36,282 nucleotides of DNA from positions 1 to 36,282 of the forward strand of contig DAOUVJ010000010.1 of NCBI GenBank assembly GCA_030667705.1, given 5' to 3'. The notes under the pieces were generated by a model, which saw only the letters and a program-made list of their open reading frames with translations, was not told where the DNA came from and did not search any database. The position numbers and the translations under genes are program-made. This DNA is from Promethearchaeota archaeon. GTDB taxonomy: Archaea; Asgardarchaeota; Lokiarchaeia; Sigyniarchaeales; SOKP01. Shown here piece by piece: positions 19,044 to 22,307 of the stretch (positions are counted from its first letter, which is position 1; each line of letters starts with the position of its first letter).

Positions 19044-21185
19044 ATGGTTAAATTTGGAATTAATCGCATAGTTCAAGTTTTTTTTCTAATATTTATTATT
19101 TCACCAATTCTCATCACAATCAATTTTAAGACTGAAATACCTATTTCATCGAGTATAATAGATTTGGATGATGACTCGCCCAGTATTGATCTATCATCAT
19201 TACCATCCCCGAATTTTGAAGAGCTTTATAATAAGTGGTATAATTCTGAAATAGAAATGATAATTGTTGCTCCCGATGATGCTAATTTTACCAAGGTATT
19301 GATTCCATTAATGGAATGGAAAAATCAGAAGGGTGTTAAAACTGTTATATTGAGTAACTTCTCTGAATATGCAGGATCAGATAATGCAGAAAAGATAAGA
19401 AATATGATAAAAGAATATCATGAAAATGAAAATATACAATGGGTACTGCTTGCTGGTGATACAGAAGAAGAATTAATCCCAATCAGGTACTCCTATAATC
19501 CCGATACCGTAGTAGTTAGCGGACAAACGGAATATTCAACCTGGGATGAGTATTACAAACCAACCGATTTTTATTATAGTGCACTTAATGGTACATGGGA
19601 TGATGATGGTGATGGTAATTGGGGAGAAAACCCTGAAAACAATGGAAATGGCATTGACGAAATTATTTGGAGTCCAGACGTTTATGTAGGAAGATTACCC
19701 GCTAGTAACGCTTATGAACTTCAAATAATGGTAAATAAAACTTTAAAATATGAGATCAATCCCGAAATAGGGGCATGGATGAATCAGATGCTATTAGCAG
19801 GAGGAGTTTCTTCTTTTTCTCCAGCTGAAGATGAAGCACGCTTAACAGAATATATATGGCAAAATTACACTATTAATCACATGAATTTCACTCATCTTGC
19901 TAAGACTACATCTAGTTTTACACCTTCCCTTCCTCCAGAACCAAATATTTTGGATGCATTAAATGGTACTTCCTTTATTAGTGGGGTAAATGAGGGATAT
20001 TCAACGATCATAATAGCGGGTCATGGGAGTCCTACAACAATCTCTGGCTGGGTCACTAGCAATAGCCAAATAACGTACTATTCTAATACTAATGCACTTT
20101 CAAGTTCTAATACTAATATGACTTCTTTAATATATGCTGACGCGTGCACCACTTCTTCTTATGATCAAGGAGATTCTAGCATTGGAGAAAGATTGATCAA
20201 ACGATTAAATGCGGGTGCAATAGGTTATATTGGTGGACTCCGAGTTACATGGTATTTAGATTACGATACTGAATTAGAAAAATTAAATCGAGGTAATGCA
20301 AAGCTATTTTGGAAACAATTTTTTGAGGAAATGAATTTTCAACAAGGAAGAGCATTATACAACTCCAAAGTTGCCTATCTTAATAGTGATTACTTTCAAA
20401 GGGGAGAAACATCCATTAGATTAGAATGGCAAAGAAAAAACATCTTAACGTATAATTTATTGGGCGATCCAGAAGTAGATATATATACAGATATTCCTGT
20501 TTCTGTACCTAATTACTTTGTCTCACCCATCCATGAAGGACAACTTGTTTCTTTCTCTGTTATCGATAATAAAGGACGTCTTACACCAAATGCTAGAGTA
20601 CACCTAACAACATTGGATGGTAAATATTTTACAGCTTATGCAAATAAAGAGGGAATAGTAAAATTCCGTTTACCTGCGCAATCAAATGAAAAATACAATG
20701 TAACAATTACAGGTCATAATTTAATTCCGACTTATTTAAACTTCACAACAATTGAAGATTCTCATTTTCCTGAATTGAGAAATATTGAGTGTATACCCAA
20801 TACACCTACAATCTCTGATCGAATTCAATTTAATTTTGAAGGGTATGATAATCAGTCGGGAGTAGAAAGCATCACTGTTCTTCTTTCTCAAAACAACTTT
20901 AATAATTTTGAATCTTTTCAAGTCTCAAATGGAGTTCTGGATAATGCTCAAAACTTTACTCTCACGTTAAATAAATTAGACCCCGGAGAATATGCTTACG
21001 CCGTTGCTATTAGAGATTATAGCAACAAAACACGACTATATTACGATAATGCTTTTAGTTTTAGTATAGCTACACCTCTTATAGAATATGTTTTAATTTT
21101 TACTTTAATTTTATTAGTTGGTCTTGCTGGACTCTTATCAATATCATATTTCACTAGTTTAAAGAAAAAGCGATTTAAGGAATGA
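19044..21185 (+). CDS. C25 (gingipain-like) cysteine peptidase, secreted, C-terminal TM anchor
   Basis: WVLLAGDTEEELIPIRY, DVYVGRLPA, catalytic His IIIAGHG and Cys YADACTTS; N-terminal hydrophobic signal; C-terminal TM LIEYVLIFTLILLVGLAGLLSISYF + KKKRFKE. Confidence 0.9.
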   Translation: MVKFGINRIVQVFFLIFIISPILITINFKTEIPISSSIIDLDDDSPSIDLSSLPSPNFEELYNKWYNSEIEMIIVAPDDANFTKVLIPLMEWKNQKGVKTVILSNFSEYAGSDNAEKIRNMIKEYHENENIQWVLLAGDTEEELIPIRYSYNPDTVVVSGQTEYSTWDEYYKPTDFYYSALNGTWDDDGDGNWGENPENNGNGIDEIIWSPDVYVGRLPASNAYELQIMVNKTLKYEINPEIGAWMNQMLLAGGVSSFSPAEDEARLTEYIWQNYTINHMNFTHLAKTTSSFTPSLPPEPNILDALNGTSFISGVNEGYSTIIIAGHGSPTTISGWVTSNSQITYYSNTNALSSSNTNMTSLIYADACTTSSYDQGDSSIGERLIKRLNAGAIGYIGGLRVTWYLDYDTELEKLNRGNAKLFWKQFFEEMNFQQGRALYNSKVAYLNSDYFQRGETSIRLEWQRKNILTYNLLGDPEVDIYTDIPVSVPNYFVSPIHEGQLVSFSVIDNKGRLTPNARVHLTTLDGKYFTAYANKEGIVKFRLPAQSNEKYNVTITGHNLIPTYLNFTTIEDSHFPELRNIECIPNTPTISDRIQFNFEGYDNQSGVESITVLLSQNNFNNFESFQVSNGVLDNAQNFTLTLNKLDPGEYAYAVAIRDYSNKTRLYYDNAFSFSIATPLIEYVLIFTLILLVGLAGLLSISYFTSLKKKRFKE

Positions 21186-21313
21186 AATTTGTAAATGGAA
21201 AACATATCTAGTGCGTGCTTAATTATTCCTTTTAAACTTAACCTTTCATGATGATAAACTTTAATTACTAGCTCTTATTATTTTTACATACTCTTAACCA
21301 AATAAGTAAAGCA

Positions 21314-21321
21314 TTTAAACA
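21314..21321 (+). promoter_or_regulatory. TATA-like box upstream of ncRNA candidate
   Basis: tttaaaca about 25 nt upstream of the start of the structured region. Confidence 0.4.
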
Positions 21322-21339
21322 TAAAATAGCCGAGCTTAA

Positions 21340-21590
21340 TAAGTGGTTAGAGGTGGTAATTTTAACCATATTAAAAGTAGCAATGCGCTAAAGCGCTGGA
21401 AGTTAAACTTGTTGGCGTTGAATTTAGTACTTCAATTTCAATTTGTGGGAAATTTCAAACTGTAAGCTCGCTTACGGTCATGGTCTCCAAGGATAATACC
21501 CGGTCCCATCCGAATAGCTTTTTTGGCTTCCGAATGGCTCGGGAACCCGGAATCGCTTTTCATTAATATGGTTAAAGGAAATCACTAATC
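21340..21590 (+). ncRNA. structured non-coding RNA candidate, family not assigned (ends approximate; strand inferred from promoter)
   Basis: No ORF. Perfect 14-bp stem TTTAACCATATTAA (21361-21374) / TTAATATGGTTAAA (21563-21576), extended outward by GGTGGT/ATCACT across an internal loop. Internal hairpins 21385-21396, 21462-21475, 21499-21543. GC-rich patch in an AT-rich intergene. Confidence 0.65.
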
Positions 21591-21761: not shown

Positions 21762-22307
21762 ATGCTAGAAAAGTCTAAAATAATCCTTTTATCTTTAAGA
21801 AAATATTGGATTTTAATCGTAGCTTTCATAATTTTCATTATATCTTTTTATAACGTGGAATTGGCTATTTGGATAACAGTGATAGTAATTATTATATATT
21901 TAATCACTGATGTGCCTTCATTAATTTTTTCAATAAAATTTAAGAAATTCATTAAAGGCCATAAATCAATTGATGATAAAACCATTTCTAAACTATTGAA
22001 GAAGCCCCTTAAAAAAATTCAAGAACAAATGTTTTTAATGAGTATTAGACAGAAAAAGAAAGAATGGTTAGTAATTTTTCTTAATAAACAATACAATTTT
22101 TTCAATGAAAAGACCATTGAAGCATTTACAAAATTATACAATGAAGGTTTGGGAGAGAAAGAAATATTAGAAAAATTAACAAATTTTAAAGTAAAAACAA
22201 GGGCACAAGTGAAGGCAATTGAAGAAACACTTATTAAAAACAATAGATTAAGCCAAAGAAAAATTTCAGTAAAAGAATATAGAGAACAACAAAGATTTAA
22301 ATCCTAA
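21762..22307 (+). CDS. membrane protein with two N-terminal TM segments and helical cytoplasmic tail, unknown
   Basis: Hydrophobic YWILIVAFIIFIISFYNVELAIWITVIVIIIYLI followed by a Lys-rich tail. Confidence 0.65.
   Translation: MLEKSKIILLSLRKYWILIVAFIIFIISFYNVELAIWITVIVIIIYLITDVPSLIFSIKFKKFIKGHKSIDDKTISKLLKKPLKKIQEQMFLMSIRQKKKEWLVIFLNKQYNFFNEKTIEAFTKLYNEGLGEKEILEKLTNFKVKTRAQVKAIEETLIKNNRLSQRKISVKEYREQQRFKS

Follow-up and report, generated by a model that had tools for sequence, protein, structure and literature searches.

Which RNA is encoded at positions 21340-21590, in the gap between an open reading frame that ends at 21185 and another that starts at 21762? The locus lies in the window, by which we mean the whole 36,282-nt stretch of DNA analysed here, and all of its parts are on the forward strand. 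The first-pass annotation had proposed a stand-alone structured RNA gene with a P1-like closing helix, unassigned or belonging to a new family, after failing to match it to 5S rRNA. The structural elements that it listed are all in place. A perfect 14-bp inverted repeat pairs TTTAACCATATTAA (21361-21374) with TTAATATGGTTAAA (21563-21576), the pairing resumes outward between GGTGGT (21352-21357) and ATCACT (21581-21586), and the inner hairpins include GCGC-TAAA-GCGC (21385-21396) and a GTAAG-CTCG-CTTAC stem that is longer than described (CTGTAAG-CTCG-CTTACGG, 21460-21477). The TATA-like element upstream is TTTAAA at 21314-21319, a candidate promoter element. RNAfold on 21340-21590 bore out the stability of the region, at -69.6 kcal/mol (z = -2.81), with one of 200 dinucleotide shuffles equally stable.

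The scan against Rfam returned zero families at gathering score for 21340-21590, so that RNase P RNA, SRP RNA and other known RNAs were ruled out; weak matches (E 4-7) to SAM-V, MIR8562 and others are due to chance. It also gave a sub-threshold match to the 5S rRNA model RF00001 (13.7 bits, cut-off 38) at 21395-21468, which corresponds to the 3' half of a 5S rRNA. The low score is explained by a permuted order of the gene, and the locus was filed accordingly as a permuted 5S variant. We hold with considerable confidence that 21340-21590 is a permuted 5S gene, the sole 5S detected in its genome, whose precursor is predicted to be spliced by EndA and RtcB to a circular 5S rRNA.

The order of the 5S parts

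Few RNAs are as conserved as 5S rRNA, whose ordinary order is helix I 5' strand, II 5' strand, III, II 3' strand, IV-V and I 3' strand. The order at 21340-21590 is II 3' strand, IV-V, I 3' strand, a cap, I 5' strand, II 5' strand and III, with the 3' half preceding the 5' half. By eye, hallmark 5S strings stand in reversed order, GGAAGUUAAAC (21398-21408) before AUACCCGGUCCCAUCCGAA (21496-21514), and between them CUGUAAG-CUCG-CUUACGG forms helix I with a tetraloop cap that joins the native 5' and 3' ends. The gene is circularly permuted, its new ends lying in loop B, and the 5S identity of the locus is established. The first reading missed the 5S because its halves stand in permuted order.

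Alignment A1, covariation and the partial RF00001 match define the 3' half (21402-21459), with loop B, the 3' strand of helix II (about 21408-21416), loop A, helices IV and V and loop E (AGUAC...GGGAA). Helix I (CUGUAAG/CUUACGG, CUCG cap) follows at 21460-21477 and the 5' half at 21478-21552, with loop A (UCAUG), the 5' strand of helix II (21483-21491), helix III (21500-21503 with 21547-21550) and loop C. What had been described as a long imperfect hairpin is present at about 21499-21550 and really combines helix III with an expansion of loop C; the alignments show an inserted hairpin at 21512-21542. This expansion occurs in a subset of relatives (e.g., L012, L013, L020), and other 5S expansions are seen in helix I (L030, L031) and helix V (L028).

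DNA relatives of the locus were found in 33 of 58 genomes, several of them with two adjacent partial RF00001 matches, the signature of halves in swapped order. When the 5S structure is put into its native order, 89.8% of cells in A1, an alignment of 33 permuted loci, are paired, 24 of the 34 pairs carry two-sided changes, and the three-way junction of helices I, II-III and IV-V is supported. The covariation score is 0.541 versus 0.188 for shuffled alignments and no more than 0.144 when partners are slid, so the check for covariation in relatives came out in favor of a structured RNA. Helix I cells are 98-100% paired with compensatory changes, helix III is 100% paired in the 33 sequences with 20 two-sided cells, and the loop that caps helix I is short, conserved and mostly UUCG-like. 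Because the element is conserved in relatives and covaries strongly, we exclude a chance origin. Free folding of the predicted circle forms helices I, IV and V and lacks the full 5S fold; the 5S structure therefore rests on covariation. A covariance model built from rotated permuted sequences only (R2) matches ordinary 5S genes from other Asgard families over its full length (1-120, 53-102 bits, best E 2.4e-24), and matches the permuted loci themselves as separate halves only.

Searching the source genome with RF00001 at E values up to 10 gave no other 5S, the half match at 21395-21468 being the only one. The assembly is about 92.5% complete and no 23S was found in it, which leaves a little room for a second 5S; closed and near-complete relatives agree with the permuted copy as the genome's 5S.

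Distribution across the phylum

Asgard archaea are the closest prokaryotic relatives of eukaryotes. Counting matches to a native-order model (R1) at E <= 1e-9, we find the permuted 5S in 134 of 228 Asgard genomes from 22 families, spread over the Loki, Heimdall, Hod, Jord, Odin, Baldr and Sigyn lineages; one of these genomes is the closed genome CP084167 (H. endolithica PR6), with two permuted copies. RF00001 scores above its cut-off in 64 of the 228. Fifty-nine of these carry an ordinary 5S and belong to five other families (f2, f8, f21, f27, f28); the remaining five comprise three with a bacterial-looking 5S (G009, G144, G099), one weak match that overlaps the permuted copy (G087), and a special case (L271 in G070). 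Besides such contaminant-like or special cases, no family has both forms. The bacterial-type 5S genes in Asgard bins (L038 in G009, L094 in G144, L096 in G099) have low R2 scores and are probably contamination. Tandem arrangements were seen for both forms: two permuted genes 157 nt apart (L129, G112:C510:3670-3961), and three ordinary 5S genes about 374 nt apart in a family whose sister families are permuted (L034, G042:C1:1399892-1400758). Because the gene is permuted, standard annotation misses the 5S in these genomes, and the authors of closed Heimdallarchaeum genomes reported that they were unable to predict the 5S (PMC8813620).

Of the 90 stretches that a pattern scan returned from 84,980 species, 86 have Asgard titles (Lokiarchaeota/-ia, Heimdallarchaeota, Hodarchaeota, Jordarchaeia, Odinarchaeia, Baldrarchaeota and Sigynarchaeota). 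The non-Asgard matches were rejected: L217, L226 and L237 are ordinary 5S genes with a chance match downstream, and L258 is a chance match. As the pattern covers about half of the permuted loci identified here, absence of the permuted 5S outside Asgard is likely, though unproven.

These results bear on two readings of the locus that would dispense with a functional 5S. That it represents a new, unrelated structured RNA family, as the lack of an Rfam match at gathering level had suggested, is refuted by the match of the rotated model to 5S at 2e-24 in a genome without another 5S, and we give it next to no credence. From a single 36,282-nt stretch one could not exclude a 5S pseudogene or an assembly artefact; the same order in 134 genomes and 22 families, including the closed CP084167, together with the covariation, refutes this and leaves it a vanishingly small probability.

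The BHB junction and predicted splicing

The flanks of the 5S part pair with each other (P0), and the junction takes the form P0-NNNN-3 nt at the front and NNNN-3 nt-P0' at the rear. At 21340-21590 this yields a bulge-helix-bulge (BHB) motif, AAAGCG-CUGG-AAG / CCGG-AAU-CGCUUU, with two 3-nt bulges and a 4-bp helix. P0 consists of AAAGCG (21390-21395) and CGCUUU (21554-21559) and is supported by covariation: among 33 sequences, the three pairs that were counted have two-sided changes in 16, 9 and 10. The central helix pairs CUGG (21396-21399) with CCGG (21547-21550), and the bulges are AAG (21400-21402) and AAU (21551-21553). The GCGC-TAAA-GCGC hairpin, present as noted above, competes with this conserved precursor helix (AAAGCG/CGCTTT). 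Outside P0 stands the outer precursor helix, with GGTGGT plus TTTTAACCATATTAA (21352-21374) as its 5' arm and TTAATATGGTTAAA plus ATCACT (21563-21586) as its 3' arm; the helix is conserved in the family, and relatives show compensatory changes such as CCACA/TGTGG, CCATA/TATGG and GCCAC/GTGGC. The stand-alone gene and its P1-like closing helix hold up, and the helix is best read as an arm of the BHB motif in the precursor, outside the mature RNA.

EndA cuts each bulge between the second and third base. Applied here, this rule predicts cuts at 21401/21402 and 21552/21553 and a mature permuted 5S rRNA at 21402-21552, in agreement with models R1 and R2 and the alignments; it would be 151 nt long, of which the insert in loop C accounts for 31 nt, leaving about 120 nt. 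We scanned the permuted loci for a strict BHB (4-bp central helix, 3-nt bulges and at least five contiguous P0 pairs) and found it in 49 of 93 (53%), versus a mean of 4.8% and a maximum of 11% in a swap control in which front and rear halves were exchanged between loci. About a third of the permuted loci have no BHB even by a relaxed scan criterion, in part owing to hairpins within P0. Predicted splicing produces helix III, the canonical AAG linker of loop B and YYAARC in 42 of the 48 strict cases that could be measured, and this linker is the same as in most ordinary Asgard 5S genes. Two registers occur: bulges AAG/AAN give CGGAA^GUUAAGC, and bulges AAA/GAN give CGGA^AGUUAAGC. The cut shifts by one base and the product is unchanged, which makes chance unlikely.

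In some loci the break itself has moved, to loop C in L027 (G035) and L169-L173 (G155, G157, G158, G151, G152) and to the 5' side of loop B in L040 (G038). All of them show a central helix of 4 bp with bulges of 3 nt, P0 is short (3-4 bp), and predicted splicing brings back the canonical sequence, as was verified against uninterrupted siblings in the loop C group. The predicted splice product of L172, ACCCGGUC^CCAUCCGAA, is identical to the unbroken stretch in L003, and in L172 GAACCCGGAAGUUAAAC is unbroken exactly where the 21340-21590 locus has its break.

EndA cutting followed by RtcB ligation to a circular 5S rRNA is the most likely course of processing. Transcription from the gene's own promoter would give a precursor with its ends paired in a long helix. 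Of the 34 long-P0 loci, 16 carry a perfect TTTAWA at 20-36 nt before the start of P0 (shuffled mean 1.5, maximum 6), which is consistent with a transcription start near P0. The presumed promoter of the locus is overlapped by an imperfect inverted repeat, AACCAAATAAG...CTTAATAAGTGGTT (21296-21348), found by eye in family sequences, that seems to covary within the family. The tRNA-splicing endonuclease EndA would then cut both 3-nt bulges and RtcB would join 21552 to 21402, which would yield the canonical sequence across helix III and loop B, ...CCCGGAA^GUUAAAC...; the source genome encodes an EndA-type gene (PF01974, E 4.5e-19) and RtcB (PF01139, E 5e-169). In this scheme CCGG at 21547-21550 would switch partners, leaving the BHB central helix of the precursor for helix III of the spliced product, both supported by covariation. 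Of the alternative helix III pairings, A-B is 100% paired and B-C 86%, and we read them as mutually exclusive states. At 21340-21590, RNAfold gives -65.6 kcal/mol when constrained to the BHB versus -69.6 unconstrained, making the BHB form 4 kcal/mol worse. The product would be a circular 5S rRNA whose helix I is capped by a tetraloop and which would be used in the large ribosomal subunit.

Two other fates of the precursor deserve consideration. The RNA might stay linear, its ends trimmed near P0 and loop B and never ligated, as we assume for the mitochondrial permuted 5S. Permuted 5S genes are cited for organelles, specifically mitochondria (PMC10085705, PMC11528492), and the strict contiguous BHB is missing in some permuted loci. 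However, trimming explains neither a BHB frequency far above the swap control nor the exact restoration of the canonical sequence at three break sites, and we consider this outcome quite improbable. Alternatively, the spliced circle might be reopened in the helix I tetraloop to give a 5S with ordinary ends. Permuted tRNAs do return to their standard form (PMC10085705) and archaeal rRNA circles are widely held to be re-linearised (PMC12918454), but the helix I cap is conserved, short and mostly UUCG-like, with no processing motif seen in it; reopening appears unlikely. A circle that persists as the ribosomal 5S is the outcome that we prefer.

Origin and comparison with known systems

One locus suggests how a permuted gene could arise. 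L271 (G070:C117:8261-8412, minus strand) is a 5S gene whose parts stand in the ordinary order but which has a short insert where permuted genes usually break in loop B; this insert forms the same BHB, CACG-GAA-CAGUC[UAUCGA]GACUG-CGUG-AAA. Its host is uncertain; the sole close match in the phylum is its own contig, possibly a foreign contig in G070. There is a hint here that a permuted gene results when the hairpin of such an intron is opened and helix I is closed. The 'CYGGAA' that is repeated on either side of the junction and the tandem copies in G112 (L129) would fit an origin by tandem duplication. A further ordinary 5S, L280 (G212:C15:39893-40044, minus strand), has an insert of about 30 nt after GGAAGTTAA, in loop B/helix II, a possible second intron site. 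The wider proposal that most Asgard archaea splice a permuted 5S in the manner of tRNAs into a covalently circular ribosomal 5S, and that the arrangement is old and derives from a 5S with a BHB intron in loop B, with the few ordinary lineages perhaps having reverted, could in our judgment fall either way.

As far as our literature search showed, natural permuted 5S was previously known from organelles only. We found no report of a permuted archaeal 5S in the open-access PMC literature; subscription papers and preprints were outside the scope of the search, and priority is therefore not assured. If true, a 5S that is permuted throughout the phylum closest to eukaryotes, and probably circular, would be the third rRNA in the BHB pathway. 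The permuted 5S can also serve as a character in phylogeny, and it offers an easy correction where genome-quality checks ask for a 5S.

With the ordinary archaeal 5S (RF00001), the permuted gene shares five helices, the loop A junction, the loop E motif and the conserved letters of loops B and C; it differs in that its halves are reversed, its native ends are joined in helix I, and its new ends lie in loop B with a BHB and an outer helix. A circularly permuted 5S gene was reportedly described from mitochondria by Valach et al. in 2014 (mtPerm-5S, RF02547). The Asgard gene shares the permutation, whereas it is cellular, phylum-wide and has a BHB at the junction; RF02547 gave no match at 21340-21590, at gathering score or up to E = 10.

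In permuted tRNA and SRP RNA genes, a BHB joins the halves into a circle. Such permuted archaeal RNA genes are known (PMC10085705) and have both the permuted order and the BHB in common with the Asgard gene, the difference being that the Asgard RNA is a 5S rRNA. Asgard archaea have circular 16S and 23S rRNAs (PMC12918454), and the same paper cites culture studies in which archaeal 16S and 23S are circularised and 5S is not; a permuted P. furiosus 23S is also on record (PMC7758197). BHB circularisation of 16S and 23S shares the proposed enzymes and a circular rRNA product, but it starts from genes in normal order, whereas here the gene is permuted, stand-alone and a 5S. Finally, E. coli lives with an engineered permuted 5S fused into 23S (PMC7283268). 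That construct likewise has its native ends linked by a 4-nt connector and is opened elsewhere; unlike the Asgard gene, it is artificial, fused into 23S and opened in loops C or D. Because such cells live, a permuted 5S can work in the ribosome.
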